Shown here in pieces: positions 25,588 to 64,000 of a DNA stretch of 64,000 nt. Where the stretch lies: NCBI RefSeq assembly GCF_039555335.1, contig NC_092637.1, positions 9,446,815 through 9,510,814 on the forward strand, written 5' to 3'. Position numbers and translations under genes: made by a program. The notes under the pieces were generated by a model. That model saw nothing but the letters and a program-made list of their open reading frames with translations, was not told the DNA's origin and ran no database searches. This DNA comes from Amphiura filiformis. Taxonomy: Eukaryota > Echinodermata > Ophiuroidea > Amphilepidida > Amphiuridae. The stretch's first letter is position 1. The number at the start of each line of letters is the position of its first letter.

Positions 25588-25599
25588 TTAATGTGAATA

Positions 25600-29878: not shown

Positions 29879-29882
29879 TCAA

Positions 29883-30435: not shown

Positions 30436-30546
30436 TTATATGTGTTTTGCTGCTATGTTGTGCGTGGTATCCAGTTAAGCAGACGTTTTAATTTTTCTCA
30501 CCTCTGTCGGTTTTTTCCATCCGCTCAGTACTCAATTTGACATGTC

Positions 30547-32459: not shown

Positions 32460-32463
32460 TCAA

Positions 32464-33106
32464 GTGAACAATGTGTGTCGTGCTGCGTATCTCCAAAATT
32501 GGCCGTATTCGGAAATACATCGACGTTTAGTGCATGCATTTGTGACATCCAGACTTGATGCTAACAATAGTCTGCTCTTTGGTCTAACATGTTCTGCAAT
32601 TTCTAAGCTTCAACGGGTACAAAAGAGTGCCCTGCGACTTGTTTCAGGAGTCAGTGGCCATCGCGTTAATATCAACGATTTACGCCGAAATGAGCTGCAC
32701 TGGCTTCCTGTGAAAGATCGAATTGTCTTCAAAATCCTCATGATCACATACAAATCTTTGAATGGACTACCTCCACCTTAATACCTGAAAGAACTTCTTA
32801 ACACCTACAAACCGAGCCGCTCGCTTCGGTCGTCGTCGCTTTCTCTCCTTGAAGTACCACGGACTGTAGCAACATCAACGTACGGAGAGCGTGCCTTCTC
32901 AGTTTCTTCACCTAAGTTGTGGAATGGGTTACCTCAGCAGATTAGGAATGCCGCGTCACTTGCCACCTTCAAGAAACTGTTAAAAACTCATCTTTTATCA
33001 ATCCAACTGTTTAAATTATATGTGTTTTGCTGCTATGTTGTGCGTGGTATCCAGTTAAGCAGACGTTTTAATTTTTCTCACCTCTGTCGGTTTTTTCCAT
33101 CCGTTC
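32464..33106 (+). pseudogene. RT C-terminal region, second copy
   Basis: Same content as 29883-30435, with the same TAA after PP near 32780. One T is missing in the CATCTTTTATC run relative to the first copy, so the ends of the two frames differ. Confidence 0.82.
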
Positions 33107-44040: not shown

Positions 44041-46215
44041 ATTACACAGCCGTGACGTTAGTCACGGCTGTGTCTTTTTTCTTACAGGTTCTTTCTTCTT
44101 CTTCTTCTGTCAACCATTACATTTGCTCTAGCACTCACATGCTTACATCGATTTTGACCTAACTTGGTCACAATAATCATTGACCGTGCCCCTACATGTC
44201 ATATGAAACTTGTGGGGTCAAAGGTCACGCAGGGGTCATAGGGGTCAAAACACGTGATTTCAACTAAAAATGCATCTTCTCCCACAACTTGTACACATGC
44301 ATTGCTATTACCCAGTGACTATGTGGTGTACACATATTTGGGGTCAAAGGTCATTAAGGGGTCACTTCCGGTATAAAACGAAAAACCTTCACACATTTTT
44401 ATTAGCTAAGTAAAACATAGCACAGTAACGGTATGTTCACATATGATCTGCAGTCATCCAATGTATATGTGGTATTTTTTTATTTGGGGTCAAAGCTCAT
44501 TTAGGGGTCACTTCCGGTATAAAAAGAAATATCTTTAAAATGCATCTTCTTCCACAAATTATGTGGGACAGAGACGCCATTTGTACACATGCATTGTTAT
44601 TACCCAGTGTCTATGGGGTGTACACAGATTTGGGGTCAAAGGTCATTAAGGGGTCAATTCCGTTATATAACGAAATACCTTCAAAAATTTTTATTAGCTA
44701 AGTAAAACATGGGACAGTAACAGTATGTTCACACATGATCTGCAGTCACCCAATGTATATGTGGTATTTTTTTATTTGGGGTCAAATGTCATTAAGGGGT
44801 CACTTCCGGTATAAAACGAAATATCTTTAAAATGCATCTTCTTCCACAGATTATGTAGGACAGTGATGCCACTTGCACACATGCATTGTTATTACCCAGT
44901 GTCTATGGGGTGTACATAGATTTGGGGTCACAGGTCATTAAGGGGTCACTTCCGGTATAAAATGAAAAACCTTCAAAATATTTTATTTGCTATGAAAAAC
45001 ATAAGACAGTAACGGTATGTTCACACATGAATTGTGATTACCCAATTCATATGTGGTATTTTTTTATTTGGGGTCAAATGTCATTAAGGGGTCACTTCTG
45101 TCTGAGACGAAAAACCTTCAAAATGCCCGTTCTGCCACAAGTAACATAGCAAAGTGGTGCCATGCATTGACATTAGCCAATGTCTATGGGCGTTTTCACA
45201 TATTTTGGGGTCAAAGGTCATTAGGGGTCACAACACGGCTGTGTTCGTGGGTTAGACCACAGCTAAGTCTAGTTCTTTCTTCTTCTTCTTCTTCTTCTTC
45301 TTTCTTCTGTCAACCTTTACATTTGCTCTAGCACTCACATGCTTACATCGATTTTGACCTAATTTTGTCACAATGATTATTGACTGTGCCCCTATATGTC
45401 ACATGAAACTCGTGGGGTCAGAGGTCACGCAGAGGTCATAGGGGTCAAAAACGTGATTTCAACTAAAATGCATCTTCTCCCACATCTTATGTAGGACAGC
45501 GGCCTCACTTGCACACATGCATTGTGATTACCCAGTGTCTATGTGGTGTACACAGATTTGGGGTCAAAGGTCATTAAGGGGTCACTTCCGGTATAAAACG
45601 AAAAACCTTCACACATTGTTATTAGCTAAGTAAAACATAGCACAGTAACGGTATGTTCACATATGATCTGCAGTCACCCAATGTATATGTGGTATTTTTC
45701 TTTAATTGGGGTCAAAACTCATTAAGGGGTCACTTCCGGTATAAAAAGAAATACCTTTAAAATGCATCTTCTTCCACAGATTCTGTAGGACAGTGACGCC
45801 ACTTGCACACATGCATTGTTATTACCCAGTGTCTATGGGGTGTACACAGAGTTGGGGTCAAAGGTCATTAAGGGGTCACTTCCGGTATAAAACGAAAAAC
45901 CTTCAAAAATTGTTATTTGCTAAGAAAAACATAGGACAGTAACGGTATGTTCACACATGAATTGTGGTTACCCAATTCATATGTGGTATTTTTTTTTTTT
46001 TGGTCAAATGTCATTAAGGGGTTACTTCCGGTCTGAGACGAAAAACCTTCAAAATGCCCCTTCTGCCACAAGTAACATGGCAAAGTGATGCCACGTGCAC
46101 ACATGCGTTGACATTAGCCAATGTCTATGGGCGTTTTCATATATTTTGGGGTCAAAGGTCATTAAGGGGTCACAACACGGCTGTGTTCGTGGTCTTAGAC
46201 CACAGCTAAGTCTAG
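44041..46215. repeat. Tandem repeat block rich in GGGTCA/AGGTCA motifs
   Basis: Two related halves (about 44090-45285 and 45290-46215), each starting with a TTCTTCTTC tract and CAACCNTTACATTTGCTC text and made of internal units of roughly 300 bp. Exact GGGGTCAAAGGTCA occurs at about 44214, 44341, 44635, 45207, 45561, 45856 and 46149, with one-base variants between. Each half ends ACACGGCTGTGTTCGTGG, and the left border is a palindrome ACACAGCCGTGAC/GTCACGGCTGTGT (44044-44073). No coding capacity. Confidence 0.9.
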
Positions 46216-46891: not shown

Positions 46892-47080
46892 AAAGCCTTT
46901 AGTTAATATACGATCTTTTTTCAGAATATACCTTTATTTTTTTTAACTGATTTTTTGGCTTAATTGTAATACTTGTTCTAACTTAAATCTATGAGCAAAC
47001 AGTCAAATTCGCCCTATTTGTAGTAAAACGGGATGATTTTCTGTTGGTTCGACATATTATGTCGGAACGACTCGCAAATC

Positions 47081-47163
47081 GTAGTCTCCTACGAAACCAG
47101 TTTGGTTATGCTCCCTCCACACGCGGAGGGAGCGTAACCAAACTGGCTGCGTAGGAGACTAAC
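47081..47163. repeat. Perfect-stem palindrome
   Basis: A hairpin with roughly 38-bp arms: GTAGTCTCCTACG, ACCAGTTTGGTTA and GCTCCCTCC on the left, complements on the right, and a loop of a few bases near 47120. A small palindrome TTCGACATATTATGTCGGAA lies just upstream (47048-47067). Probably a short foldback MITE. Confidence 0.8.
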
Positions 47164-47169
47164 TCTGAG

Positions 47170-48200
47170 GCCGTACTCGCCGTCCTAAATCCAAAAAGTG
47201 CGAGATATTTCGAGGGATAGAGGTGAAGTTTCTGATGTTGTTTCTTTGCAAATTTCCAATGTTTTTCGTGAACAAATGTATTGGGAACTTTCATAATGAT
47301 TACATATTAACTATTTTATAATTTTGGAAGAAAAATTTAAAAGGATTGTACATTAAGGCTTTAAGGAGACAAGATATTATCTTAAAGGGCCACTTCGTGA
47401 TCCATTTTACACCCCCAACTTTGAGATTTATTACACCATCAGAAACCTAGGACTACCGACTATTTGATGTTAGTGTGCATATAATTTATTTCATATTCGG
47501 TCAATTTACAGCGATATCGTCCGATTTGGGCTGTTGACAGCACGATGACGTTTTAATCATAAGAAAATGACGAATTCTTCTGTACCTTTTAACACATAAA
47601 AGAATAGGAACCTGGTTTACTGGTGTGATCCCTTACCTTCCTGTGTATACATGGTATAAGAAACTTGTATGGGCAACGCACTTCACATCTCCGCGACAGA
47701 ACATTTACAATATTTATCCAGGTTGCTCGATGTTTAAGTGAGTGATTATTTCTGTTTTATGGTTTTCGACTACACTTACATATACATCGCAGGGGGTGGG
47801 GGGTATGCTAAAAATGGCTCTAGACAGAATTGTTGATATTTTAAGCTTACATAAAAATCTTATACTGACGCTTCATCATGCTAAAGTACTAGTGGTTTTT
47901 TTTTTGGGTGTTTTCGGGAATAAAATCTATATCTTTACGAAAGGTCAAAATTTTGATATGATAGACGGCTTTTAACCCCAGCTACATATACTTTAAGTAC
48001 ATCCTTAGATTTATACAATTTACTTCGAGGGCTGTTAAATTTCAAAAATATCAATCTTTAATAATTTGCCATAAAATTTGTATTATATCGCAAATTTCTA
48101 CGTTTTCAAAATGCAATTCTATATGTCTGATGTGCTCTCAGGTCCCACAACAAATATGTGAAAATGTCGCTATCCGAACCCTTAAAGTAAATATTGAAGG
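47170..48200. other. No gene seen
   Basis: AT-rich DNA without a credible reading frame, RNA gene or repeat structure. Confidence 0.4.
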
Positions 48201-48362
48201 TTATTAATACGATGAAAGGTAATCATTCTTTGATCATAAGTGATAGTCTGTGTAAGGAACTGGCAACCCAGCATACCTTTCAGGCGTGTACGTTATTTAT
48301 ACGATGAAAGGTAAACATTCTTCGTGGTCATAGGTGATAGTCTGTGTAAGGAACTGACAACC
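48200..48362. repeat. Tandem pair of ~70-bp repeats
   Basis: TACGATGAAAGGTAA ... GATAGTCTGTGTAAGGAACT occurs twice (about 48208-48271 and 48298-48363), about 90 bp apart. Confidence 0.75.
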
Positions 48363-50145
48363 AGGGATGTCAACTCTCCACTAACGAAACTCTGCACAGG
48401 ATTTCGAAAATATAAATTATGCAAATGAGGCAGAAATCGAACAGCGCCACTCATTAACATGACGTCAAACGCGTCATCGATATCCTGGCTTTCAAATTCT
48501 GTCGATCGAGCTAGTCTCCAGTACATGTTGCATTTTGCTCATTTTAAAAACTGTGGGGGTGGGATATGGCAAGAGAACTGTGAAAAGACTACGTATCAAT
48601 CCATCGGAAATATGGCAGCTTCCCCCGATGAATTCTGCCAACTCTGTCGTGAGATATCGTAAGATTTCTACGGCGATTTTGTCCCAATTTGAGATCGCAC
48701 GTCAGTAAAATCAACGTAAATCGGTATGTACCCGACCCTAGATTTGTCAGATTTAACGGATTTTCATATTTTTGTCAGGAAAGGGGTATTTTTATTTGAA
48801 AGTTAGTATTTCAAGTATTCATTTGGTGCCAAATTCGGAAAGGCACACGCAAAATTTAACAAGCACAGCTACAATATGCATGGCCGGGAAGTGGGTTTTT
48901 AGTGGAAATTTTTGCAATTGCAATGCACGATTGCACGCATCTCCGTCACAATGCAGGAGGGGTCAGACGCGGTGTGGTGGTCGATTCGTCGGCGTGTACG
49001 TGTGTATAATAATGATAAAAATCATGACATCAGATGGACATGCATGATGATAAATTAGCTGTTTTATGCATGATAATCATGTAATATGATATTAATTAGT
49101 GATGATGATGATGGACGGTTTAAAAAATAAATATGATTTATGAATTTTCATATGTCATGCATGCTATATCTTGATGAGTATGACTAAACTATATGCAATT
49201 GCAATGTATTTTATTAGATTTCAAATTTCTAGATATTGCATTTAATATTGATCAATTATTTATGATTTATGATGTCAATATCATCATGTATATAGCACTC
49301 GTACGATTGTGATATTTCAATTAACAAGCATATGCCAGCGCCAGTTTAGCGTAGCGTTGCGTTAACGTCAGGTTGCGCTTGTTGACCATGATTGTCCTTA
49401 TGAATTGTGTCCAAATTCCAAAATAAAAAATATAAATAGTCAGTGGCATCGCATGGCAATAGGGTATATTTGTATCAGTTTCTGATTCATTTATTGGAGT
49501 GAAAGGGGGGCAAATATGCAAATTGAGGAGCGATCTGCCCCTTTTCATTCCCACAATGCATCAGAAACCAATAAATTTGCAATCAATAATATACCCAGTT
49601 GCGGCACATACACTAGCTAGGGCAGCAGGGGTGGGTGGGGACCCCACTAAAAAATAAATAAAGGGGCCCATGCTGAATGGGGCCTGGGGTGTTGCCTTTG
49701 TCAAGATGTCAACCAGGTTTCCAGCTTTAAAAAAAAAATGCTAATGGTTTCAAACCTTCGATTGGATATATCCTGACAACGATTGTGTGCACGCAGTAAA
49801 TTCATGCCTATTTTCGGCACAATACGTGTATGTGCATATGAATTTTATACTCTGTCTTGGTGCTCTATCTGCATATGTTGATGTTGTCATTTGTCCAAGG
49901 TTTATCAATTATACTGCTCGAACATAAATTGAATAAATAAAAACGGTTGCTGCTAAGATCTATTTTTACAGGTTTTGTTTTATTTCTCTTTATTCAGATT
50001 TCAGGAAATCCAATCCAACACTTGCTTAGGCTCTAAACAAATCTGCATACCGTATATGTGAACCTTCATTTTGATTGCATATTTGACTACCTCAGTAAGT
50101 ACAAATGAAAGGCAGCCGGCAATTACATTTTAAACAATATACAAA
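48363..50145. other. CAGGGATGTCAACT terminus, then gene-free DNA
   Basis: CAGGGATGTCAACT at 48363-48376 looks like a hAT-type transposon terminus; no matching second end nearby. A short frame at 48612-48662 (MAASPDEFCQLCREIS) is followed by GTAAGA and might be a transposase first exon, but nothing downstream supports it. The rest, including GC-rich text at 49620-49690, shows no gene. Confidence 0.35.
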
Positions 50146-50212
50146 ATACCACTTGTCATTAATTTTTGAAAATAAATAATTCAATAAAATTAATAAAAGT
50201 GGTATTTTGTAT
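50146..50212. repeat. Short foldback repeat
   Basis: ACAAAATACCACTT and its complement AAGTGGTATTTTGT frame an AT-rich loop of about 35 bp. Confidence 0.7.
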
Positions 50213-50661
50213 TTTGTATTTGAATTTAACCAGTTCTTTAAACCTTTGCATTTTATATTACAATTAACATTTTCAAAATGTTGTTTTCTTTTTACATGCA
50301 CAGTGACAAATCACAAGATGAGACCAAGGGTGCCATCTCTCTATAGCATCAATCTACTGATGAGACCACTCAACAATCTCTCTATAGCATGATCTACTGA
50401 TGATTCCTGCATGTTAACGTGGATTGCGATTACTTTGCTCTCTTGTGCCTAGCTGTTGCTAAATATTAGCAAAACTTGGTTATGCCATCAGAGTACGGTG
50501 TTTGCACTTTCACAAATCAGCATATTCTACTAACAACGGATTAATGCAAGACTAACCAGCAGCAAAGTGACGCTTCTACGTACGGCCAGCCAACTGATGG
50601 AGCTTTGCATATATCGTGAAGATCAACCAGCTCAGCTTTACAGTATCCTTTCGTATAATTA

Positions 50662-50848
50662 CAAGCCTCGAAATAAGCAGATTTTAATTGCAGGGCCTAC
50701 ACATTAAATACAAAAACCGATTTAACTACCAGGCTCTATTTGGAAAATATGTAGAGCGTGGTTAACATGATTATGGTGTGGACCAGGAGCCAAAATGTCA
50801 TGACCATTGGGTAAATGGTTCCTGGGTGCCTGCTTATTTCGAGGCCTG
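50662..50848. mobile_element. 187-bp hAT-type MITE
   Basis: Inverted ends CAAGCCTCGAAATAAGCAG and, on the other strand, CAGGCCTCGAAATAAGCAG. The flanking 8-mers TATAATTA (50654-50661) and TATTATTA (50849-50856) match at 7 of 8 positions, fitting a hAT target duplication. No coding capacity. Confidence 0.82.
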
Positions 50849-51144
50849 TATTATTATCATATTTCATTAATATTGCATAATACTCTATTTGTAATAAAAC
50901 TACAATTGCAATGCACAACGAAACATCAATATCACACTTTGTGGATAATGTTGGCATAAATTGAATTTTGTTCTGTTCATCACTTTCTGGAGTCAGTCTA
51001 ACAATAATTCCTACTAGCATGTTCCATTCAAAAGTATATTTCCTTATAACACATTCAAACTAAATTCTTTGTGTTAAGTAGTTAATTAAATTTTCAAGTT
51101 CAAAACAGTTTCTACTTGTAGAGCATGTATTAATACTGCTTACA

Positions 51145-51470
51145 TATTAAACGGAAACTATTGTTGTAATAGGCGAAAATTTAATTTCGCAATTGTTACA
51201 TCAATGCAATACAATGATACAAGTGATTATTAAAAAAATCATGACTATAATAAACTGAAATACACTTAAATATTAAACGGAAACTATGGTTGTAATAGGC
51301 GAAAATTTAATTTCGCAATTGTTACATCAATGAAATACAATGATAAAAGTAATAATTAAAAAAATTTATTGTTGTAATAGGCGAAAATATAATTTCGCAA
51401 TTATTACATCAATGCAATACAATGATACAAGTGATAATTAAAAAAAATTATGACTATAAACTGAAATAAA
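51145..51470. repeat. Three tandem hairpin repeats upstream of RAG1-like
   Basis: Three units of roughly 100-125 bp. Each contains GTTGTAATAGGCGAAAAT, then its near-complement AATTTCGCAATTGTTAC, then CATCAATGCAATACAATGAT. The first two units also share TATTAAACGGAAACTAT. The GGCGAAAATTTAATTTCGC core is a perfect-stem hairpin. It ends about 60 bp before the RAG1-like start codon. Confidence 0.85.
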
Positions 51471-51525
51471 CTTGCTTTTTTTAGAACAGGACTTGAATTA
51501 AAACAAACAATAATTTATTGATTAC

Positions 51526-51527
51526 AG
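51526..51527 (+). other. Splice acceptor before the RAG1-like start
   Basis: TTTATTGATTACAG is followed after three bases by the ATG at 51531, suggesting a 5' untranslated exon upstream whose intron ends here. Inference from sequence only. Confidence 0.45.
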
Positions 51528-51530
51528 ATA

Positions 51531-52508
51531 ATGGCTGAAAGCAAATTGGGGCCAATGCAAAAACACCTTGAAAAACTTGGTAAACTGTGTAGAATGTGCG
51601 GAGAGGGAATGCCCGTGGTGAAGAATAGGACTGTAAAGCGTGTTGAGCAGTTTGCTGACGCATTCATGGTCGCCTATAAATATGATGTGAAGTTGGACGT
51701 TCGCGAAGTCCACCCGGAGAAGGTCTGTGGCAAGTGTGAGGGTAAGCTATGGCGATATAATCCTGACAAGCCGAGTTCCATGCCAGATCTACATGTCTTT
51801 AGCCCACACACTGTGGACTGTAAGATCTGCAATAAACAGCGAGGTCGTCCTCCAAAGGCGAAGGCTGAAGAGCATCCACATCCAGAGCAACCACCTGCTA
51901 AAATCACAAAGCAAAGTGCCACTAGGAATTTGTTTCAAGATCAACAAATAGAATCCATAGCCCCTGAACAGTGCATTGATTCTGCCATGGCTGCCATTCT
52001 GCAATGTTGCTGTTGCAACAAAATACCAGGGAACCCTATTTCTTTAACTTGTGGTGACATTGTGTGCAATGAATGCATCAGATCATACATGACAACAGGT
52101 CAATCTGTGTGCCCATCATGTATGAAACCCTTCACAGCTGATGAAGTTGAATATAACACAAAATACTTCGCCATCATTAATGAACTTCAGTTTAAGTGCA
52201 AGTACCACACAGAAGGTTGCAAACACATTACTAACAGGCCCTCCCTTTCAGAACATGAACAAAATTGTGATTTTAAATATTTCAGTAACAAATTCCTTGT
52301 CCCATCAACATCCAGAGGCTCCTACAAGAAGAGACCTCTGTTCGATGTCACAGAATCACACAGGAAAGAAAGAACACGCGATGCGCAGAGCTTACTAGAA
52401 AAATGGGCATTGAAGGCGAAGGAGAGCCTTCCAGATACGTTAGCGTATCTCCTCAAACGCAGTGGTCGAAAACCAATGATCCCCGTCTTGGTTCTATCAC
52501 CCAACTGA
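51531..52508 (+). pseudogene. RAG1L: RAG1L N-terminal zinc and RING-like region
   Basis: Reads 325 codons from the ATG, though the family-like part ends near codon 310. CRMC (residues 20-23) and CGKC (66-69), then HTVDCKIC (93-100), match the vertebrate RAG1 N-terminal zinc layout including the VHPEKVC context (60-66). A RING-like domain follows: Cys 159/162, 174, 179/182 and 194/197 with vertebrate spacing, but the ring His is an Asp (CGDIVC, residue 176). A further zinc finger uses Cys 223 and 230, His 242 and Cys 246. After KAKESLPDTLAYLLKR the frame is lost (near 52460) and the last 15 residues are foreign. Confidence 0.9.
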
Positions 52509-52741
52509 TAGAACATGGGTCATTGGGGAAGAAATTAACAGCCGACCAATGCTTAGCAGCTCTGCGCATCACAACCCTTCAGAGTAAACAACAATACGCA
52601 GAGCAATATTCTATTCTTAAGCACACCCTAGGAGAGGAAGGCAATGTTTATCAGCCCCCATCCCAACTCTCATCTAGAGAATTTTCATACATGCCTGGCA
52701 CAGCAAGATATCAGATCTGCGGAGACAACACCACTTATGCA
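52455..52741 (+). pseudogene. RAG1L: RAG1L segment between RING and core
   Basis: Frame +2 relative to the first segment. Reads TQWSKTNDPRLGSITQLIEH, then KKLTADQCLAALRITTLQSK, then NVYQPPSQL, SYMPGTARYQICGDN. The last part corresponds to the vertebrate RAG1 stretch around QIFQPLHALR and LLPGYHHFE just before the catalytic core. It ends at the target site TGCA of the inserted element. Confidence 0.82.
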
Positions 52742-54059
52742 CTTATCAAATGCAACCCCGGCCCCTGGGGACCCGGGGATGGCCGGGTCGTGGGCCGTGG
52801 ATTTTGGGTTTAAAAGTTCAAGTCCCAGGTAAACACCTGGCCAGTCCCGGACCCACCCGGACAAAACTTTCAGCCATTCCCCGCCCCCCCCCAAGTTCCC
52901 GGCCCTGAGCATCATAGCCTTGGATATTAATATGGTTTTAATATTATTGCGGCAATCTTGTCATGCGGGCTCAAATTTCGACTGCCGACCTCTGAACATG
53001 CTGGGTGGATTCAAAGGCTTCAAAATATAGGTCTACATGTGTGCCCCATTGCAAATACGTCAGTTACTCACCATGTTGCGGAACATCTAAAAACGATAAA
53101 CGAAATTAGGTTACAATAGCGCAGTGCAGCATAATTATTTCCTCTCCTTCCTATATTAGGTTTAGGCCTATATACTTGCTCAACTGTTTGAGTATCAACG
53201 CACGGCTAGAACAATGTGCACAGTTTACCTATAGGCATGGAATCTAAAAATTTGATATAGGCCTACCCCTTTTTGTTTAGAATAGATCAAAGTACATCTG
53301 ATGTCTACGTTTGGAAATCGCAATGTCTCTAGTAATTATTGTTAAACACTCCAACATGAAAATGTAATATAGTTTTAAAAATTGTATATTAACACAAGAT
53401 ATTGAATTCAATTTTTATATCATGTATGTAGCCATGTAGCAGTCGATAGCAGATGTTATAGATTCTTTTATTATCACGGTCAGTTTTGTTTTTGAGTGTA
53501 GGCCTAATAATTTAAAACTTTACTCTCGGCAGGTGGTTAAAAACTGTTTAAAAAAACCAATACATTTGGCATAAATAAGCGTACAGCAGGCTCTCGTTTG
53601 CACGTGCATATCCAAAAGCCAGTGTGGTCTGGTTAACCATGCTAACTAACAGATACATGGCCTACTACAGCCAAGATTTTGTTTTTGGAATGGATTATGA
53701 ACAGTAACATTAATTTGGCGACTCAGTGGATTATTAGTATATATCCACGGCTCAAGTACGGCCAAGTGAAAGGATTTCCCAGCCCATAAATGCGGGCATC
53801 CTTACTATCAAACCACGACCATGTTCACGGCCCATTTTACTGGTTGGAAAACCGCGGGTAAGTTACAACATAATCCCGGCCCTCCCCTGGGGAAGTCCCG
53901 GCCCAATTTCCCGGGGTTTTAGACGACGTCAATTCTTATACCAGTCCCGGCCAACACCCGGCTCCCCCCGGGACACTTTTTGAATCAAATCCCGGGTCAC
54001 ATGATGTCAAGTCCCGGACCATCCCCGGGTCCCCAGGGGCCGGGGTTGCATTTGATATG
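52742..54059. mobile_element. 1.3 kb GC-rich-ended DNA element inside RAG1L
   Basis: Inverted ends of about 45 bp: CTTATCAAATGCAACCCCGG then CCCCTGGGGACCCGGGGATGG-like text on the left; CATATCAAATGCAACCCCGG with the same continuation, on the other strand, on the right. TGCA lies on both sides (52738-52741, 54060-54063) and is the likely target duplication. Subterminal regions are full of CCGGGAC-type motifs, the middle is AT-rich, and no transposase frame is seen. The superfamily is not clear. Confidence 0.87.
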
Positions 54060-55237
54060 TGCATTATTCCCATACCCCCATAAAACAAAATCAATCAAAT
54101 CCCAATGACATACAGGACACAAATATATCACTAGAACCAATCGACATCCTACAAGATTTCCCCTCCCAAGCCCATGAAATGGCAACACCTAATTTAAAGG
54201 GCTGCCGCTTCCTTTATGCTGATGCCATAGCCAAGACCTTAGAAGAACTGGATCCCCTGATAAATGAGGCACTGATGAATAAAGGGTTGAATCCCCAAGA
54301 TGAAGAACACAAACTGCGTGTTATCATTAAGGACGGGGCAGATGGGATGGGCGATGTTTCGGTTCATAAAGAGAAAGGCGATAGATTCCTTCCAGACAAA
54401 GCTTTCCGGTTTGATTTTTGCATTGTGTCGGTCAGAGTGGAAATAAACGGCAAAGAGGAGGACCTCTATGAAAATCCGACGCCCAATTCCGTGCGATGTA
54501 ATCGCCCATTGTTGGAGGCCATAGCAGATGAAAATAATCATGGCTCTGTTTCAGTTATGATGGCCCCCATTGAATTGGAAAGAGAGTATTTGAATGATAA
54601 GATAATGCGAGTTGATTGCTGTGGGCAATGGCGGCAGTATGCGCCTAGATTCTTTACCAGTATGATAGATGAGAAATTTAGTCGGGCTGAGGGTGGGTTA
54701 AAAGGTACAGGGGCTAATCAAGTATGTACATTATGTAATGCAACCAATGAAACATGTAAATCTAATCTAGGGGGGTTCAAAATTGATCGCACATATGCAG
54801 AGACAGTGAAGAAGGCACGTCAACTAGATATTAATCCATCCAAATTATCCAGGCCTGAGCTTGAAAAGCAGCTCCAAGCAGAGGGTGTCAAGTCCAGGCC
54901 TGTACTTCTCTCAGAGCCAGCTGAGCAGGGTATAGATGCGACACACGCAGATATTAATCTTGCGTCCTTCTTCAAAAAAGTCATCGTGCGTGAAATGGCA
55001 GGTCTGCAACAATGGAAGGCGAAGGAAAAAGATGGTGTGAAGTCAATGTTGGATGCTGCGGAAGTAGACTTAAACAACCACCTAAAACGGCACATTGGGA
55101 TCAACCCTCAACTGATGATGCCTGGCAACTACGCCCGTCAATTATTCAGCGAGGCCAATCAAGATGTAATTTTAGAGCTTATCCCAGATAGCAACCGGCG
55201 TCAACTTCTAGCAGAAGTCCTTTCCTTGTTTCGCTAA
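54060..55237 (+). pseudogene. RAG1L: RAG1L catalytic core, first part
   Basis: Numbering from the codon at 54059. GADGMGDV gives the first catalytic Asp (residue 95, D600 in mouse). LPDKAFRFDF and NPTPNSVRCNRPLLEAIADE follow, with Glu 158 matching E662. SMIDEKFSRAEGG gives the second catalytic Asp (204, D708), exactly 19 residues before the CTLC zinc pair (223/226; C727/C730 in mouse). Then come LNNHLKRHIGINPQLMMPGN, NYARQLF and LELIPDSNRRQLLAEVLSLF, all aligned to the vertebrate core. An in-frame TAA stops the frame at 55235-55237. Confidence 0.94.
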
Positions 55238-55666
55238 GTACGCACAGTCTATCGTGCCCTCAAGCCCCTCAGCACACATAAAGAACTCACACTAAATATC
55301 AAAAACACAGCACTGCAAATGGGACATATTCTGAAAGATGACTTCTCCTATGTTCCGTGGACCAACTACTTGCACAAAATTATAGAACACACTCAGGAGC
55401 TAATTGAAATGAAAGATGGACCAGGGACCATAGGAGGACTCAGCGGAGAGGGGAATGAGGCGGGAAATAAGCTGTTCCGGATCATTAGATACAAATTGTC
55501 ACGTAAGGGGGATACATATGGAGGGTTGAGGGATGTGCTGTGGGTACATTGGTTATACAGTAGCCCAATGTTACATGCCATGGGAACCATCGTCAGAAAA
55601 CAAAAACAATGTCAAATTTGTTTTTGCTATGGGCACAACAAAACATCATGTCATAAAAAAAAGTGA
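55238..55666 (+). pseudogene. RAG1L: RAG1L catalytic core, last part, with C-terminal zinc knuckle
   Basis: Same frame as the preceding segment past the TAA, no indel. VRTVYRALKPLSTHKELTLN leads to SYVPWTNYLHKIIEH, whose two His (spacing 5) complete the zinc site (H937/H942 in mouse). SGEGNEAGNKLFR holds the catalytic Glu (codon 55457-55459, E962). VLWVHWLYSSP matches the vertebrate helix after it. The end is a CX2CX4HX4C knuckle (CQICFCYGHNKTSC, 55610-55651), a tail known from invertebrate RAG1-like proteins and absent from vertebrate RAG1. Normal stop TGA at 55664-55666. Confidence 0.94.
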
Positions 55667-56144
55667 ACTGACACTTACAAAACACAACCAAATATGTTGT
55701 ATTGCAGGGATGTTAAAAGTGGTAAACTTGCAAAAATATCTGCAGGTGAAAATATTGACTTTACAGTAGGTAGGCCTGTATGAAATATAATTGAACAGAG
55801 GTTTTCAAGAGCAAGAAGTCCAAGAGCTGTCATTATGTAAAATTGATAAAATTATGTCATGCTCCCAGTTACTTTGCAAGATCAAGTAAAAAATGTGTTT
55901 TAGCTGACACTTCCACTTTTCATAATTATTGTATACTTGTATTAGCACTACTCTACTGTATAAATTTTCATAAGGACTTTTCGCAAAATTCTCAAGTGAA
56001 TATGAAATTTTTTGCAATAGGTTGTATAATTGTATTGTACGGTTACCAATGTCGCAAAAAATCGCAAATTGTATTTGGTAAAAGTGGTAAAACAGCAAAA
56101 ATATTTGCTGGTAAAATTTCTCAATTTTAATTATAAGTAATAAT
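55667..56144. other. Intergenic space between convergent RAG1L and RAG2L
   Basis: 478 bp between the two stop codons. Two related stretches, AAGTGGTAAACTTGCAAAAA (55718-) and AAGTGGTAAAACAGCAAAAA (56082-), are direct repeats. No other gene; presumably both 3' untranslated regions. Confidence 0.7.
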
Positions 56145-56993
56145 TTACCTGCATCGAGGGCATACAAATTTGCCTGAAGGGACAGATACAAGCTTCAAGC
56201 AATACATGTGATACCACTTTTCACATCTCCCCTCACATTGAACCCACACAATATCTCCTTCTAAGGCTACCTCTGCTATGATACATTCATCTGCAAGATC
56301 ACATGGGTCTGTTGAAATATGTTTTGATGTAAAATAAAATATGTGTTTGGTAGTTCCCCCACATAACATAATGCACTTGTCATCCAATTTGAGCATGTTG
56401 TGACCAGCTGTCTTAAATATTGATTTCTGAGCTTCAACAGCATGCATAGAATTCTCTGACAGATCAATAATATGCATAGTGTTGGAAGTTTCAGGAATCC
56501 CAGGTCCGATCACAGCATGTTCAGATTGGAATCCACCGTACACACACAAATATTATCTGTGTACAAAATGCACTATGGTATGAGAGGTGTACTGGTGTTA
56601 CTATGGGATGTGTGAATTGCATGCATGTAAGATGGAATTGCCTGCGGTGTAGGTTGTCAATGTGAAGAATGTTAATGTCATGCAGTGAAAGCCTGTGTGT
56701 CTGTATATTCCCTGTGTAAGATGCCCCCCCAATAATGTAAATGTTGTTGTTGTGGAGAGTTGATGTGTGGTAAGCTCTGCCAGGTAGCTGAGGAACTCTC
56801 AGTTTCTCCCACGTATAAGTCTCTACATTAAGCAAGTAAAAATGACCATCCTCGCATGAGGTCAGAAATGGTCGAGGCAATGGCACAGCTCCTCTGCTCT
56901 TCTCTGCTGGTCTGTACTTGTTGGCCATGGTGACTCCTCCATGTAAGATGGCATGACTCTTATCCACCATAGTCATCGAGTGTCCAAAGCGTG
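56145..56993 (-). pseudogene. RAG2L: RAG2L exon 4: kelch blades 3-6 and PHD finger, frameshifted
   Basis: Starts after TTTCCAACAG with ARFGHSMTMVDKSHAILHGG, then LPGRAYHTSTLHNNNIYIIG. At about 56540 the frame slips in TTTGTGTGTGTAC: one more GT unit would continue FVCVYGGFQSE, the next kelch blade. The following frame reads GHNMLKLDDKCIMLCGG and a PHD finger with all eight ligands: CDLADEC, CEGRC, WYHMYC, CPRC (C4HC3). The stop TAA (56147-56145) directly follows CPRCR; the bases there, CAG|GTAAAT, also form a perfect donor, so a further 3' exon cannot be excluded. Confidence 0.9.
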
Positions 56994-57940
56994 CTGTTGG
57001 AAAAAACATTGAAATTTGTAATTTTACAAATTATGATTTCTGGGGCAGGGGACTGAGCTAGGTGTAAATGTATGACACTGTTTTGGTTAAAGGTACATAG
57101 CAAGTATTAAGAACAAAGCAAAAGTTTGATTTTATCTTTTTGTATGTTTTAATTTTAGTTTTGAATTTTCAGTTTTGTTTTTTACTTTGCATCAATTTTT
57201 TCACCTGTTCTACATTTTTTGTCTACAAGTCAAAGAAAGGTTTTCTGAGACAAACATTTTCCCTCAACTGTTCAGACAGACTAAAAAGTCAGTAATTTTA
57301 CTGTAGCTTCAAGTTTGTTCTTCTATTGTTATATTGATGTGGACTTTTGTAAATTAAACATGCTGTAAAATAATGGCATGAAATAAATTTGGGTTAATTT
57401 TGTAACTCAAGGTTTATTGAAAAGGTTTCATGCCTTAAGGCCAATTATAATTGATTTCATGTTTACTGTTGGGGATTTTGAAAAGTGGACGAGGTCACGT
57501 TTGATTATTAATTATCTATTATTTTCTTTATTTAGTTTTAATTATTACAACCGAGTCACAGAATATCAACTCGTTTTGGCTAGAGCTAGTATTTATTTGA
57601 TTTCACAACAATACTTGATTTTATATAAAAAAAAAGTAAAGGTGAAGTTAATAATTATGTTCTTTGTTTATCCATAATTATTAAAAAGTCAGTAATTGAA
57701 ATTGGTTACTTCAATTTAAAGGAGAAAATCAAAAATGAAAATAAATTTTTTGTAATTTTCAATTTTGAATGCAGGCGGTAAACAGTAAACATGAAATCAA
57801 TAGTAAAATTTTGGCATTATCAAGATTTGTTATATTTTTCATTTTGTGACAGTTAATAAAATGTTTTGCTGAATGAGATAAAAATTTGTTTACAGACGTT
57901 TGTTAAATTTCAAATGTAAGAATATTTACACACACAGTAC
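56994..57940 (-). other. RAG2L intron 3
   Basis: 947 bp of AT-rich DNA with GT-AG ends. Short open frames here have no protein-like character. No repeats with clear borders. Confidence 0.65.
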
Positions 57941-58177
57941 CTTCAGGTATGTCCCCTTTTTGAAGGTCCTTTGATATGGTCGCCTCATTCTGATATGGAC
58001 TTTCTACGATTGTGCAATCAAAGGAGGGCTTGCTGCTGCGTCCTCTAGGCACCTCCTTCAATACCACCAAATTGGAGGACGCAACAAGGTATCGCAGATC
58101 TTGTCCTCCAAACAGCACCAACTGGCTCCTCCCATCAACCACCATTGCAGCATTGTGCAACGCACCAAGAGTAGCAC
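57941..58177 (-). CDS. RAG2L: RAG2L exon 3
   Basis: 237 bp. AAATAG acceptor, GAAG|GTACTG donor. Reads G-ATLGALHNAAMVVDGRSQL, VLFGGQDLRYLVASSNLVVL, then KDLQKGDIPE. Contains the second kelch Gly-Gly. The IPE end joins exon 4 as IPE-ARFGHSM, the same sequence context as VPEARYGHS in vertebrate RAG2. Confidence 0.87.
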
Positions 58178-58345
58178 CTATTTAAAAATAACACAAGAAA
58201 ATAAAAACATGTAGGAAGTAAATTTAAGCGACCGTCAGTCATTTCCTTCATGATGTATAAAAGCAGATTAATTTACAAAAGCAATTTGACAAGAAACATT
58301 CATGGTCATATACATTGTTGGAAAGTACTAAAATCAAATACTGAC

Positions 58346-58492
58346 CTTTTATGTTGCACTCATGGAAACCGAGGATCTTCACATCCTCGTCCTCATCTAA
58401 CTCCACCCTCAACTGGACCAGCTGAGATGCAAAGGGCCAGGTTGCCTCCTCCTTTCTCCGAGCACCACCCAGGAACAAATATTTCCCTTCAT
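58346..58492 (-). CDS. RAG2L: RAG2L exon 2
   Basis: 147 bp. AACAG acceptor, AAAAG|GTCAGT donor. Joined to exon 1 it reads D-EGKYLFLGGARRKEEATW, then ASQLVQLRVELDEDEDVKIL and GFHECNIK. First kelch Gly-Gly; acidic stretch VELDEDEDV. Open throughout and consistent phase on both sides. Confidence 0.85.
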
Positions 58493-59973
58493 CTGTTGTA
58501 CATGTACATGGAGGAAAAGGTGAATTGCACAATAATTATCAGTACATTAAACTGAGTGTTTTATTTCTCTGTATTTTTTTTAGTTCCAGAACAACTACTG
58601 TATCTTCATTTTTATGTTTGGCCATGTATTTGAAATCAAAATATTTACATAGGCCATAAAATCCCGATTTCTTCTTTACTGAGCCAACATTTATTAAGTA
58701 TACAAACTTCATTTTGAAAAGGAAAAAAATTAAAAATAGGCCTATAAATTAATTTGTGTGTATCATAGTCAAACAACATAAACAATATTTTATTCCCAAA
58801 CATTACCACTAAGCATTTCCAACAGTACAATTAGAGAAGACATCTTTTATATAATTAGAGAATAAACGATAGGAATTTTTATTTTGCCTATCCTCTACCG
58901 TGTGATAGACGACAGACAGGTCCAATATTTTGAGTAGTGGATGCCGGCGCAGCCGGTATCCACTACGATAAAAATAATGGACCTGCCTGTCGTCTATCAC
59001 ACGGTAGAGGATAGGCAAAAAAAAAAATTCTATCGTTTATTCTCATTCTTAATCAGTTAAATATTATTTTAATAACTGTAAACAATTTTTTTAAAGCAAA
59101 AACTAAGTTACTAAGAATATCGTTTAATTAGGCAAAACATAAATACAAAAAATAAAAGGTTTGTTGAGGAGCTTCAAAATGCATGCGGGATTTAATTATT
59201 ATTTTGGGTTTTTTTTTCATGACTTTGCAGCTTTTGATTTTTTTTGTATAGTGATTTTTATTGCATTTTTGGTGACGTGGAAAAACAATCTGATTTAAAA
59301 AATCAAAATGAAAAAAAAATTTGCTTTACTTTTTTTATCAAATCCCACGATTTTATTAAAATGTGCATGGCATAGGAGCTTTGAGACTTAAACCTTTTTT
59401 AAAATATTTATTTGACAGCGGACACAAAACACAAGTACCATCAAAGGAAAAAACAAACAAAGACATAAATATATGAATGTAATAATTATGCAGGCCTTTT
59501 TATTTTGGCAAGACAGAACGTTGGTAAAAGTTGTCACCAGGACCAAAAAAGTACTGGTTAAAATATTGAAGGCGAAGCGTAGCAAGGGAAGCTCTCGCGC
59601 CTCGCACTATCTTTTTGTGAACGCTAGGGATCGGGGAATAGGCTTTTAGGGTACCACCCCCCTAAAAAAAATTTCGTGCTCTTTTTATGATGAAATATCA
59701 TCATATCAGATCATCCACTTCCGCAAATGTAAAAAAAAAAAAAAAAAAAATTGCACTTCATTCATACTTTTACTTTAGCTTACTGGACGTTTGATGTCAA
59801 TAATATTATAAATGATCACATCACATTCACATCATCATCATGACAATTGACATCACAACACAATTCACATCACACACATTCGAATATTCGATATCATCAT
59901 GCATGCATTATACAATAAAACATCGACATCGACGACATACGACATCATCAACATAATAATATTATAAGCTTAC
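58493..59973 (-). other. RAG2L intron 1
   Basis: 1.48 kb. It contains the foldback MITE at 58859-59043, AT-rich text, a GC-richer patch near 59575-59625, a poly-A run near 59726-59750 and CATCA-rich simple sequence at about 59800-59955. No gene. Confidence 0.7.
58859..59043. mobile_element. Foldback MITE in RAG2L intron 1
   Basis: Long perfect arms: AGAATAAACGATAGGAATTT and CCTCTACCGTGTGATAGACG on the left, complements on the right, around an inner stem TGGATGCCGGC/GCCGGTATCCA. No coding capacity. Confidence 0.85.
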
Positions 59974-60112
59974 CTGTTGTAGCAACACAGTGACCCTCTG
60001 GCGGAAAATAACCCTCCCCTCCATCCATTTCCAGCTCGTGCTTCTTCCTGGTCATTTTCCGCTTGTTGGCAGAATATAGACGTGCAGTCAAAAATCTATG
60101 ATCTTCTAACAT
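59974..60112 (-). CDS. RAG2L: RAG2L exon 1
   Basis: 139 bp from the ATG at 60112-60110 (MLEDHRFLTARLYSANKRKM) to a CAG|GTAAGC donor. Ends PPEGHCVATT plus one base. The ATG is the last one in the frame before the conserved part; an upstream in-frame ATG at 60202 would add 30 unconserved residues, so the shorter start is preferred. Corresponds to the first kelch strand region. Confidence 0.75.
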
Positions 60113-60389
60113 GTTTGCGAATGCAGAAGCTAGGATTCGAACAAATATAAAACTATCGAAATTGCAACAAACACACGTCCGACTACGACTCGACCCCTGC
60201 ACCCGCTGAGCTGCGCGCTGTGTGTCAGCATGCCGCAGAACCCGTCTGAGCAGCGGGGCTTTCCCAAACTCAACACATTTGACCTAGCTCATTATATATG
60301 CGCGTTATTTGACCTTTGCCAAAAAAATCGCATTGCGCACGCTCAGTATTGCAAATGAAATCCAGTACACAGTGAATGGGGATATTTCG

Positions 60390-60632
60390 TAAGTGCTCTC
60401 ACGCATTGACCGTGAGTCTCACGCATTGGCTCCCTTTCTAACGGTCTCACGCCTAGGTAGTATAATCTCACTCCTAGGTAGTCAATCTCACGCAAAATGT
60501 TGGAAAATTAGTAAAATCTCACGCATCGTCAAAATAATTTGTTGTCCCTACCCCCCCCAAATGAACATTGTAGTCGACAAATCCTGGTACGGCTCTGTCT
60601 CACGCCAGTCAATTCCAAAAAGTTGACAGCCC
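60390..60632. mobile_element. Truncated DNA transposon end (CTCACGC-rich)
   Basis: Repeated TCTCACGCATTGACCGTGAG-like motifs lead to a terminus GTTGACAGCCCTG at 60620-60632, the complement of CAGGGCTGTCAAC. The same terminus type, CAGGGATGTCAACT, is at 48363, but flanks do not match and the subterminal text differs, so they are treated as separate. The left end of this copy is missing. Confidence 0.6.
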
Positions 60633-60996
60633 TGCGGTGGGTGGCTATACTTTTTGCGTTGACATATGTGGGCACGTTGCCTGGTTTGAGGAACGGTCTA
60701 TGTGTTTCGCGGTTGAGATCAAGTGTAACGTCCAAGTAGTTAACGATATTCTTATTTCCTTCTATAGTTATACGCAGTCCATTGTCTTTGAAGATTTCGC
60801 ATATCTTCTTCTTGATTTTTTCCACGGTGTTTGGTGGTTGGTGGAATACCGCCAGATCATCGTCTCTGTATAAGCCAATTGCGCTGCCATAGTGGGATTT
60901 AAGTTGGGAAAGCAGATACACTACTACTAATTCGCAGCATTCCGCTCCGTCGTATGAGCCCATGGTGATATCAAATTGTGTGTTATTTTTCTTTAC
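60633..60996 (-). pseudogene. Penelope-like reverse transcriptase, inverted 5' fragment
   Basis: Minus strand: [20 protein letters not shown], then [15 protein letters not shown] (catalytic YRDD), [20 protein letters not shown] and [15 protein letters not shown]. These are typical Penelope-like RT motifs. Broken near 60640. Its start abuts the start of the plus-strand fragment, and the two share about 25 codons. Confidence 0.88.
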
Positions 60997-61008
60997 CCAT
61001 GGTTCTGC

Positions 61009-61913
61009 AGAACTACGATCTCAACCGCGAAACACATAGGCCGTTCCTCAAACCAGGCAACCTACCCACATATGTCAACGCAAAAAGTAGCCACCCACCG
61101 AGCGTCATCCGCGCAATACCCGTGGGAATTAACCGCAGGTTGTCTGATATTTCGTCCAACGAAAGAGAATTCAAAGAAACAACCCAAGTGTACCAGGACG
61201 CCTTGAAAAGAAGCGGATACGACCACAAGTTGGAATTTAAACCAAAAACCGAGAAACGGAAAGCTCGAAACAGAAAAAGGAACATCACCTGGTTCAACCC
61301 ACCCTTTGACCTCACCGTAAACACAAACGTCGGTTGTCAGTTCCTGAAAATCGTGAACGAAAGCTTCCCAAAAGGCCACGCTCTCCAACAGATATTCAAC
61401 AAGAATACACTAAAATTATCATACAGCTGCATGCCTAGCATTAAATCATCCATAGACGCTCATAACAAAAATTTAACTAAGGTGCCAGAAACGGACGACA
61501 ACAAGCCTTGCAACTGCCGAATAATGAACGAGTACCCGCTGGACGGGAAATGTAAAACACCAAATATCATATATCAGGCAACCGTAAAGACCAATCACAG
61601 TGAAGAAACCTACGTGGGACTAAGCACAGATATGCAAACCACAATCAATCTTTCAAAAATCAGCACAGAAGCATCAAACTAAACTGTCTAAGCATATCTG
61701 GTATCTAAAGGACAAAGACACAAACTTCACTATTAAATGGAAACTACTGCGACAAGCCCGGCCATATTCTAACATCACCAAACGATGCAACCTATGTATC
61801 ATTGAAAAGTACTTTATCATATGCCGACCAGAAATGGCAACACTCAACAAGCGTTCCGAACTACTCAACGCATGCCGGCACAAAACAAAATTTAAGTTAA
61901 AAAATTTAAGTTA
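61009..61913 (+). pseudogene. Penelope-like element, 3' part with GIY-YIG endonuclease
   Basis: Reads [40 protein letters not shown], a Lys/Arg-rich linker KRKARNRKRNITWFNPPFDL, the Cys motif CNCRIMNEYPLDGKC, and [20 protein letters not shown], the start of a GIY-YIG nuclease. A frameshift near 61675 follows, then [34 protein letters not shown] and [17 protein letters not shown] complete the domain. Domain order is standard for Penelope-like elements. Confidence 0.9.
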
Positions 61914-61974
61914 AAAGAACCAAACCAGAAGGAGTTGCTTAGCGACGAACGCCCTGAAATGCTGGCATTTTACC

Positions 61975-62150
61975 TAGTAGTGGCGTATCCAGCGCCCAAA
62001 TACCGGGATAAAAGACACCAAATTTGTGATTGGCCTGTTTGAGGTCACAACTATCCTTATTTTAGCCCATTTCAGCATTCGAATTGACAATTTGTGCGCA
62101 CTTCGCGCTCAAAACGTCCCGGTAATATAGGTAGAGATATACCACTGATA
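61975..62150. mobile_element. Small foldback element
   Basis: Left end AGTGGCGTATCCAGCG with ATACCGGGA; right end, on the other strand, AGTGGTATATCTCTACC with ATTACCGGGA. Imperfect arms, no coding capacity; borders approximate. Confidence 0.5.
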
Positions 62151-62689
62151 ACTAGACACTAAGACAGTGCCCACTCCGAGCACGGTTACTTTCAAACAGG
62201 ACTGGTTACTTTACGGACAGGTTACTTTCCGGCAGACAAGTTACTTTTAGGAGCAGCATGTCCTGAAACATTGAAACATTTTTTGCAGCTTTTATCGGAA
62301 TTTATTATTGCTAATAAAATAAAGAAGATTTTCTTACAGTCATGTTTGATTTTATTCTCTCCCTCGTGCAATAACTGTATTCTTGTGTGCTTGAAATGTC
62401 CAAATTAGGTACAATCATTAACTTTGTACATATCTATTTTTCAATTCTAACATACTGGCCCCCAAACCCTCGAAATATATCCGCCCGCCCCACTTTTATG
62501 GGAAGTCGACATGGTGAGATACATTGTATCTTGCCAAGACAACATTCAATTTGATTGAACTCGATATGACGAGAAAATATAGCTCACCAAGACAACATGC
62601 TATTTTTTATTTCGTCATCTAATAATGTGGATGGCACATAGATGCTTCCGTAGACCCAAAAATAGAAACCAAAAACCCGATAATGCACT
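62151..62689. other. No gene; short GGTTACTTT repeats
   Basis: GGTTACTTT recurs four times at about 62182-62250. The remainder is AT-rich with no reading frame of note. Confidence 0.45.
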
Positions 62690-63055
62690 TTCAACAACTC
62701 TTCCTATACCTTTGTACAGGAGCCAACCGTTGTTAATCCATGATAAATCCACAGTTTTACAGTATCGTATACGCGAACGCAAGCGCGCATAAGCGTTACG
62801 CGTCATCGTGTGAAATTCGTCATGCCTGGAACCTGTGTGCGTATACACGCTTAGACCTACAAGTTGAATTCAATATTTTGAAGGTAGCGGCTATAGCCGC
62901 TAAACATTGCAGAGAAATCACCGATGTTTTTGTAAGGCGTCCGGCACGTCTGCGTGGTTTACTTCGCTCGGGCAGCTAAAGCTGTCCTCGCGAAGTAAAC
63001 CACACATACGACGCGAACGCATCGTTGTTAATCGCTGATGAACAACGATGAAAAT
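62690..63055. mobile_element. AACAACTC...GAGCCAACCGTTG repeat plus palindromic core, copy 2
   Basis: First part matches 13187-13330 (TACCTTTGTACA, GAGCCAACCGTTGTTAATCC, GGAACCTGTGTGCGTAT); second part has the GTCTGCGTGGTTTACTTCG stem of the palindromic MITE, with an extra GGGCAGCTAAAGCTGTCC-like loop, and ends TTGTTAATCGCTGATGAACA. Shows the two parts belong to one repeat. Confidence 0.75.
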
Positions 63056-64000
63056 TTACTTCCAAACTTAGTTTTATACAGGAAACAAACTTTTTGAAAT
63101 TATATATGCAAGAGAACAACAAAGTTGGTGTTTTTGACCCAAAATGTAGGAAATCTGCATGTTTCTTATGTTCACCATGGTTATGTTCTCCTTTCTTTAT
63201 TCCAAATAAGATATTTTAGTTTTGAAAAGAGGTCCTAAAATTTTTAATATTTTGTACTTTTCCCCTTACGAACACAGCATTGCATCAGTATGAGACTTGG
63301 TAGTCAGAGCCCCAAGCCTACACAAAATGAGCTGGGTTACCTTGAAAGAACTTATTTTAAACTAATGTATATTGATAGTCTGGAACCTCAGGATTATGAA
63401 TTCAGAGGTCGTATTTTTCTCCAGGATTGCAAAAAAATAGATATTGCGCAATAATGATGACGTCATCAAATTTTGGATAAAAAAATGCAAAATGTATAAA
63501 AAAAATTCTTTTCTGTATGGATACATTAAATACCCCTCCTTTCATTTCTGTTACGTTAGAAGCAGTATTATATTCAGATATTGTGTTAGGAAAATTTTAA
63601 TTTAATTTTTCTCCTTGACATGTGTACTAAATATAATGTTTGATTGCGATTTTCTCAATAAGGCGTTTTTTCACTTTTACGTGGCTATAGATATTGGCTA
63701 CTTTCTCTGATAAACATATATTTTAACCAATTTTTAAATATTTCAAACTATTTTCATATGCATTTGGATGTTCTTAGTAAGAAAAAAATATGTTTGATTC
63801 CAAAATATATATTTGTATAACGTCTATCGGACAAAATATGATGACGTCATCAAATCTAACTCCACATCTAAAAAAATTCGAAATAGTTTTTATTGCTTTA
63901 TATGATGACAAGCATCGTTACCTTTAATTTCAACGCATGTCAGAACCGCACACTCAATTTGTTTACGATTTATGAACGACAGAAACTATTGATATGCATT
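63056..64000. other. Gene-free DNA with two TGATGACGTCATCA palindromes
   Basis: TGATGACGTCATCA at 63455-63468 and 63839-63852, each followed by AAAT. It matches the CREB/ATF consensus TGACGTCA but may simply be part of a dispersed repeat. Nothing else recognisable up to the window end. Confidence 0.5.

Follow-up and report, generated by a model that had tools for sequence, protein, structure and literature searches.

Does the convergent pair of genes resembling RAG1 and RAG2 in the brittle star Amphiura filiformis mark a copy of a RAG-like (RAGL) transposon, or merely a pair of genes resident in the host genome? Vertebrate V(D)J recombination goes back to RAG transposons, from which the antibody-gene recombinase RAG1/RAG2 descends. 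The pair lies in a stretch of 64,000 nucleotides (contig NC_092637.1 of assembly GCF_039555335.1, positions 9,446,815 to 9,510,814), which we call the window and from whose first letter all positions are counted. From the letters alone, the segment 51531-60112 had been read as a decayed RAG (ProtoRAG-type) transposon in an ambulacrarian-like genome. Very probably this is indeed a RAGL transposon copy, of ~12.0 kb at 48379-60395, with a RAG1-like (RAG1L) and a RAG2-like (RAG2L) gene tail to tail; its gene identity, architecture, conserved residues and a nested insertion are established.

Reading of the window on both strands yields RAG1L as a plus-strand series of open frames at 51531-55666. 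Its N-terminal piece (51531-52505) comprises a zinc/importin-binding region at ~51636-51926 (Pfam PF12560, RAG1_imp_bd, E 2e-8) and a RING/ZDD-like region at ~51996-52286, and continues towards the core. The continuation (52463-52737) lies in a different frame, within the open reading frame 52289-52813, and the break between the two was positioned by homology, roughly at ~52.46 kb. Over 52289-52810 the shifted piece gives a Pfam RAG1 match below the cut-off (E 0.077), and LTADQCLAALRITTLQSK within 52463-52737 is like sequences of relatives in an alignment judged by eye. Beyond the nested insertion, the core (54064-55234) has the CTLC zinc site and every catalytic acid but the fourth, and matches Pfam RAG1 with E 1e-46 (54056-55234). 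An in-frame TAA at 55235-55237, evident from the open frames and from alignment with relatives, separates it from the C-terminal piece (55238-55666; Pfam RAG1 E 3e-14 over 55238-55663), which holds the H-x4-H zinc site, the fourth catalytic acid and the CTT zinc motif CQICFCYGHNKTSC. The catalytic acids reside in the motifs DGMGDVS (54341), ADEN (54524), IDEK (54665) and GEGNEAGNK (55445). As determined by alignment with 12 relatives and a motif check, all four acids and both zinc sites are present, as is CQICFCYGHNKTSC, the C-terminal motif of invertebrates; the labels of catalytic and zinc residues are carried over from vertebrate RAG1, a correspondence that we assume. Among solved structures in the PDB, the top match of the core is RAG1L of the amphioxus ProtoRAG transposon (6b40, 338 bits, E 5e-100), and the best vertebrate RAG1 scores 163 bits. 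The gene thus has the DDE core of a RAGL transposon, and the N-terminal zinc motifs and RING-like domain of the original prediction are borne out.

Opposite residues E649 and R848 of mouse RAG1, by a numbering that we partly presume and partly take from PMC7204232, the alignment places a valine and a methionine, respectively. Both residues appear to be of the kind found in transposing relatives: valine or alanine in place of E649 is reported to favour uncoupled cleavage, and a hydrophobic side chain at R848 to favour transposition (PMC7204232). Directly 5′ of the RAG1L start, a splice acceptor-like sequence recognized by eye suggests an upstream non-coding exon.

RAG2L occupies the minus strand from 60112 to 56145 as four exons with GT/AG borders, whose reading frame runs on across the junctions until it breaks within exon 4. 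The exons were placed by eye and homology: exon 1 with the start codon at 59974-60112, exon 2 at 58346-58492, exon 3 at 57941-58177, which exactly matches residues 1-68 of the database protein P0201, and exon 4 at 56145-56993. By homology and motif check, exon 4 bears kelch repeats 3-6, the PHD finger (~56303-56148) and the frame break at ~56.54 kb, where the protein was read with an X. The protein has six kelch GG motifs, as predicted, with a seventh GG at residue 31 ahead of the propeller, and a short linker without acidic hinge leads to the PHD finger. This finger fits the cysteine/histidine pattern Cx4-7Cx14-16Cx2-4Cx4Hx2Cx11-18Cx2C of invertebrate RAG2Ls (PMC7204232), as do those of all four relatives tested (P0202-P0205), so that pattern and missing hinge together give the protein the features of an invertebrate RAG2L. 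Pfam RAG2 matches with E 3.5e-8 (33.3 bits against a cut-off of 21), and the general kelch model scores higher (99.6 bits). Among solved structures, amphioxus RAG2L ranks first (98 bits, E 4e-27), followed by RAG2 chains with 30-31 bits (E 1e-6), another kelch protein with 27.1 and the RAG2 sequence 3jbw with 18.7. ProtoRAG of amphioxus therefore provides the closest solved structures for both proteins of the window.

A database search with RAG2L returned six proteins, the best of which, P0201, is an A. filiformis ‘uncharacterized protein’ of 326 residues from this very locus. Its residues 1-68, 69-223 and 225-326 (325 of the 326) are read exactly, in pieces, from the six frames of the window, and the host is accordingly an echinoderm, in line with the ambulacrarian-like genome that had been surmised. 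P0201 covers the exon 4 region but skips the frame break by means of its own splice. Since the protein is annotated as uncharacterized, the locus is easy to miss. Intron 1 of RAG2L also contains a foldback at 58858-59044 (two 74-nt arms, 93% identical, and a 39-nt loop), probably a small inverted-repeat element.

The two genes meet tail to tail across a gap of 478 bp (55667-56144), exactly as first described and in the convergent order of RAGL transposons. We scanned the flanks (47000-51531 on the left, 60100-63990 on the right) for CAC-headed inverted termini bounded by a 5-bp duplication. The pair 48379/60395 ranked first, with 10 of 12 terminal bases matching and an exact duplication CTCTC at 48374-48378 and 60396-60400. 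The ends read CACTAACGAAA at 48379 and CACTTACGAAA at 60395; the probable left terminal inverted repeat is CACTAACGAAACTCT (48379-48393, plus strand) and the probable right one, reading inward, CACTTACGAAATATC (60381-60395, minus strand). Both lie outside the segment first delimited, and with the duplications the feature widens to 48374-60400. The interval 48394-51530 would form the 5′ non-coding part of the element, including an 82-bp tandem repeat at 51281-51452, and its assignment to the element depends on the left end. As controls, ten other stretches of the window were scanned with an identical layout; the top two pairs from each reached 7-10 of 12 matches with one mismatch in the duplication. 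When all positions from 43.5 to 51.5 kb were tried as alternative left ends, 48379 was again best (10/12), and the next seven listed had 9/12 and did not follow CTCTC.

Protostome RAGL elements share the end consensus CACTWMCAAACKTYKBB and 5-bp duplications (PMC7204232). Both ends of the A. filiformis copy fit CACTWMC..AAA only with one extra base allowed before AAA, and in this form (CACTWMC, an optional base, AAA) the pattern occurs at three places in the 64 kb, 48379 (+), 60395 (−) and 55672 (+). We shuffled the flanks (8 kb on the left and 3.9 kb on the right) by dinucleotides 2000 times: 4 shuffles showed the pattern in both flanks, and 0 showed it together with the duplication; without the consensus, an equally good pair arose in 17 of 1000 shuffles. 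Because a CAC-headed inverted pair together with a 5-bp target duplication encloses both genes, we regard the locus as a transposon copy and not merely a gene pair, which bears out the original assignment to the RAG transposons. The third match, CACTTACAAAACACAA at 55672-55687, is itself a very good RAGL-end-like sequence; it begins 5 bp past the RAG1L stop, between the genes, and has no CTCTC flank. The sequence TAGGCCTA occurs 8 times in 1-64000 against 0.8 expected from base composition.

Several points weigh against this reading. The optional base and the consensus-free thresholds were chosen post hoc, with the pair already in view, so that the shuffle figures are flattering and 17/1000 is the safer one. 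The likeness between the ends fades after ~11 bases and amounts to 15 of 30 overall, and three other plus-strand sites (10346, 52740 and 55672) share 10 of 12 bases with the right end, none of them CTCTC-flanked. The distance from the left end to the RAG1L start, 3.15 kb, is long. The ends are probable and well supported, but they are known from a single copy. Moreover, two frame breaks and one stop render both proteins unreadable as assembled.

How far the copy has decayed can be judged from two kinds of damage. A repeat search revealed a nested transposon of ~1326 bp in RAG1L at 52738-54063, with terminal inverted repeats of ~50 nt (94% identical) and borders uncertain by a few bases; its ends are GC-rich, and the borders are compatible with a duplication of either TTA or TGCA. 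A 3-bp TTA flank would suggest what we take to be a PIF/Harbinger-like insertion. The long terminal inverted repeats led us to reject an intron at 52738-54063. The small lesions, namely the frame breaks near 52.46 kb (RAG1L) and 56.54 kb (RAG2L), one of which falls in a GT run, and the TAA, are of another nature. The assembly (N50 68.86 Mb, GC content 36.67%) was made with flye from Nanopore R9.4.1 data and has a quality value of 31.6, or 0.00068 errors per base (PMC11310086). This predicts ~2.8 assembly errors in the 1386 codons counted, against the three small lesions seen, and because the two numbers are so close the lesions are not to be taken as real without reads; they could be assembly errors. 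The terms ‘decayed’ and ‘fossil’ of the original prediction, which contained neither the insert nor the small lesions nor the ends at 48379/60395, therefore stand firmly by virtue of the 1.3-kb nested insertion and not of the small lesions. Should the TAA nonetheless be genuine, a single stop in 1386 codons sets a 95% upper limit of ~15 million years without constraint, a rough value as it uses a neutral rate of 1.885e-9 (PMC11310086) and the pieces were picked for being open. A burst of mostly DNA transposons in A. filiformis is dated to 10-15 million years ago (PMC11310086). With the nested insert, one TAA and two frame breaks, the copy as assembled does not have the intact reading frames of an active transposon.

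The RING/ZDD-like region sets this RAG1L apart from what has been described for echinoderms. The N-terminal piece is collinear with residues 143-421 of full-length RAG1 (E 1e-8). Against the solved RAG1 dimerization domain 1rmd the RING region gives E 5e-5, and the BRCA1 RING matches better (E 8e-7); it is the position and order, rather than the RING alone, that make the region ZDD-like. In this copy an aspartate replaces the usual RING histidine. Among 80 RAG1 relatives, many of them truncated at the N-terminus, 14 show a RING pattern. The region is absent from all four named echinoderm RAG1Ls whose N-terminus is in the alignment (P0014, P0015, P0016 and P0025). It is missing likewise from the amphioxus row P0024, despite the ZDD reported in amphioxus RAG1L (PMC7204232), and absence from a predicted protein is thus weak evidence. 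Published accounts state that RING/ZDD is missing from the echinoderm RAG1Ls studied (PMC4411706, PMC7204232, PMC9885083); elsewhere, PMC9885083 refers to the poorly conserved N-terminus of one urchin protein ‘which includes the ZDD’. Taken together, the sequence comparisons point to a RAG1L that keeps a RING/ZDD-like region reported missing from other echinoderm RAG1Ls, and by the presence of this region (~51996-52286) the element falls outside the echinoderm type TransibSU, whose RAG1L has no RING/ZDD. The combination of domains is not new in itself, since mollusc elements with ZDD and PHD have already been described (PMC7204232), later than the ‘TransibVDJ’ transposon that was predicted to carry a RAG1L with RING and a kelch-PHD RAG2L (PMC4411706).

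The original prediction had left the descent of the core to a phylogeny, which groups RAG1L with invertebrate RAG1Ls and gives it no firm place among them. The tree comprises 46 rows, the window RAG1L and 45 of the 80 aligned proteins, with no row known from family C, family D or the hemichordate part of family A. RAG1L pairs with P0021 (support 100/99), an ENA protein of 454 residues that is 60-61% identical to it and departs from it near its end, and falls outside the vertebrate RAG1 branch (100/100). Grouping with an echinoderm clade of 8 rows, 5 of them named echinoderms, is not rejected (p-AU of the approximately unbiased test 0.169); nor is grouping with the rows of this clade plus two Ptychodera rows (p-AU 0.13) or with a set of 12 bivalve-like rows that includes three named bivalves (p-AU 0.373). 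Since none of the three is rejected, we claim neither descent within echinoderms nor transfer. Judged by the tree, RAG1L is of invertebrate type and no close relative of vertebrate RAG.

ProtoRAG (BbRAG1L/BbRAG2L) shares with the A. filiformis element the convergent pair, the DDE core, the CTT zinc motif, CAC-headed ends and the 5-bp duplication, but its RAG2L is described as having no PHD finger (PMC7204232) and its ends start with CACTATG (PMC8289069) instead of CACTAAC/CACTTAC. TransibSU of sea urchins and bat star (SpRAG1L/SpRAG2L) has an echinoderm host, a convergent pair and an N-terminal zinc region, and sea-urchin RAG2L has a PHD finger (PMC9885083), like RAG2L of the window; the reported lack of RING/ZDD is where it differs. 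Among named echinoderms, the five rows spanning the greater part of the core are 46-48% identical to the window core, and a partial sixth 43%. The bivalve RAGL_B elements resemble the A. filiformis copy in the ZDD reported for Mollusca, the PHD finger of RAG2L, the end consensus CACTWMCAAAC and the 5-bp duplication (PMC7204232), and the Mercenaria and Pinctada rows show 50-51% core identity. They belong, however, to another phylum, the tree does not firmly place the window copy with them, and its ends have one more base before AAA. Vertebrate RAG1/RAG2 agree in the RAG1 domain order, in kelch repeats and PHD finger of RAG2 and in the tail-to-tail arrangement, whereas core identity is ~26-32%, RAG1L lies outside their branch, and the window proteins have no acidic hinge, an invertebrate-type PHD finger and transposition-type residues.

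Could the pair instead be resident, domesticated host genes that were broken later, with ends that match by chance? Sea-urchin type I pairs are likewise tail to tail and regarded as domesticated (PMC9885083), the locus of the purple sea urchin is reported to have no terminal inverted repeats (PMC4411706), and the coding parts of RAG1L and RAG2L carry few lesions. We nevertheless consider this quite improbable, as it would leave to chance a CAC-headed pair with an exact duplication around both genes, which the shuffles matched rarely or never (on thresholds chosen post hoc), and the residues at the E649 and R848 positions are like those of transposing relatives. That a Transib-like transposon here adjoins an unrelated kelch-PHD gene of the host deserves hardly any credence. 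Transib elements do have a RAG1 core (PMC4411706), and if amphioxus RAG2L is set aside, the kelch part is little closer to RAG2 (3jbw scores even lower) than to another kelch protein. Yet amphioxus RAG2L wins by a wide margin (98 bits against 27 for the other kelch protein), which speaks against the possibility, named with the original prediction, that the kelch-PHD exons come from an unrelated gene. In addition, the PHD finger follows the invertebrate RAG2L pattern, the gene is tail to tail with RAG1L where a plain Transib, a transposase only, has no RAG2 gene, and RAG1L has N-terminal zinc regions, which are described as absent from canonical Transib (PMC4411706).

A further view refines the transposon reading rather than opposing it: the element may be working or have worked until very recently, the small lesions being assembly errors and only the nested insertion real, perhaps on one haplotype. 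The match between expected errors and lesions, the break in a GT run, the intact active-site and zinc motifs and a genome heterozygosity of 3.22% (PMC11310086) speak for it. Base-calling error cannot account for the nested insertion (structural assembly errors are a separate matter), and the change of the RING histidine to aspartate also tells against it; we hold this refinement to be a serious possibility, short of probable.

On the basis of a RAGL transposon and of homology with amphioxus ProtoRAG, we infer a cut-and-paste mechanism. Intact RAG1L and RAG2L would assemble on both CAC-headed ends, the DDE active site would cut next to CAC, and the element would be reinserted at a 5-bp staggered cut, giving rise to the CTCTC duplication. 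A requirement for CAC and 5-bp duplications are reported for ProtoRAG (PMC8289069). Because of the transposon nested in the gene, this copy cannot make RAG1L as assembled; its ends look complete, and a functional RAGL enzyme from elsewhere could therefore in principle move it.

The surroundings are rich in repeats. Just outside the right end, the stretch 60529-61682 contains a 73-nt inverted pair (60648-60720 and 61017-61089) and frames that we take to be Penelope-like, which have no Pfam match. Two head-to-tail copies of a 2.58-kb stretch (99.5% identical) with a reverse-transcriptase frame, one at 30814-32055, fill 27945-33106; this tandem duplication is either genuine or an artefact of assembly. 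A protein search with the frame at 30814-32055 gave 3808 matches, and no echinoderm is named among the 120 listed. At 13935-20171, a 3.1-kb stretch is present in two direct copies (98.8% identical). Minisatellite arrays of ~175-bp units at 22083-23145 and 25603-26464, mutually inverted copies of ~91% identity, lie within 21908-26639, and 44287-46173 holds two arrays of 146-bp tandem repeats with a higher-order period of 292 bp.

Among the open-licence papers listed in literature searches, none has a title or abstract beginning that points to this locus, and an earlier ophiuroid mention may exist. The words ‘brittle’ and ‘ophiur...’ have 0 uses in PMC9885083, PMC9435367 and PMC8355894, ‘brittle’, ‘ophiuroid’ and ‘Ophio...’ 0 uses in PMC7204232, and ‘RAG’ has 0 occurrences in the main text of the A. 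filiformis genome paper (PMC11310086). A 2012 review (PMC3308324) is the one paper among those listed that has both ‘brittle star’ and RAG1, and its passages on RAG concern the sea-urchin pair only. Fossilized RAGL transposons are drawn for echinoderms, and diverged RAG1L copies are mentioned as well, with brittle stars not named (PMC9435367). The RAGL transposon as a kind was already known, and the brittle-star copy adds a member to it.

A brittle-star copy with both genes, probable ends and intact catalytic residues adds an echinoderm class that these RAG papers do not name. It also suggests that RING/ZDD was kept by one echinoderm or more, in a phylum described as lacking it, which is relevant to the question whether the transposon already had the domain set of vertebrates. 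Tentatively, and aware that it is rather unlikely to hold in full, we suggest a young, perhaps still mobile brittle-star RAGL transposon whose RING-bearing RAG1L, kelch-PHD RAG2L and recombination-signal-like ends form the full architecture that was earlier postulated for the vertebrate RAG ancestor. In that case the RING would have persisted in one echinoderm lineage or more and disappeared from those of urchins and sea stars, and the Amphiura genome would contain active copies at other sites.

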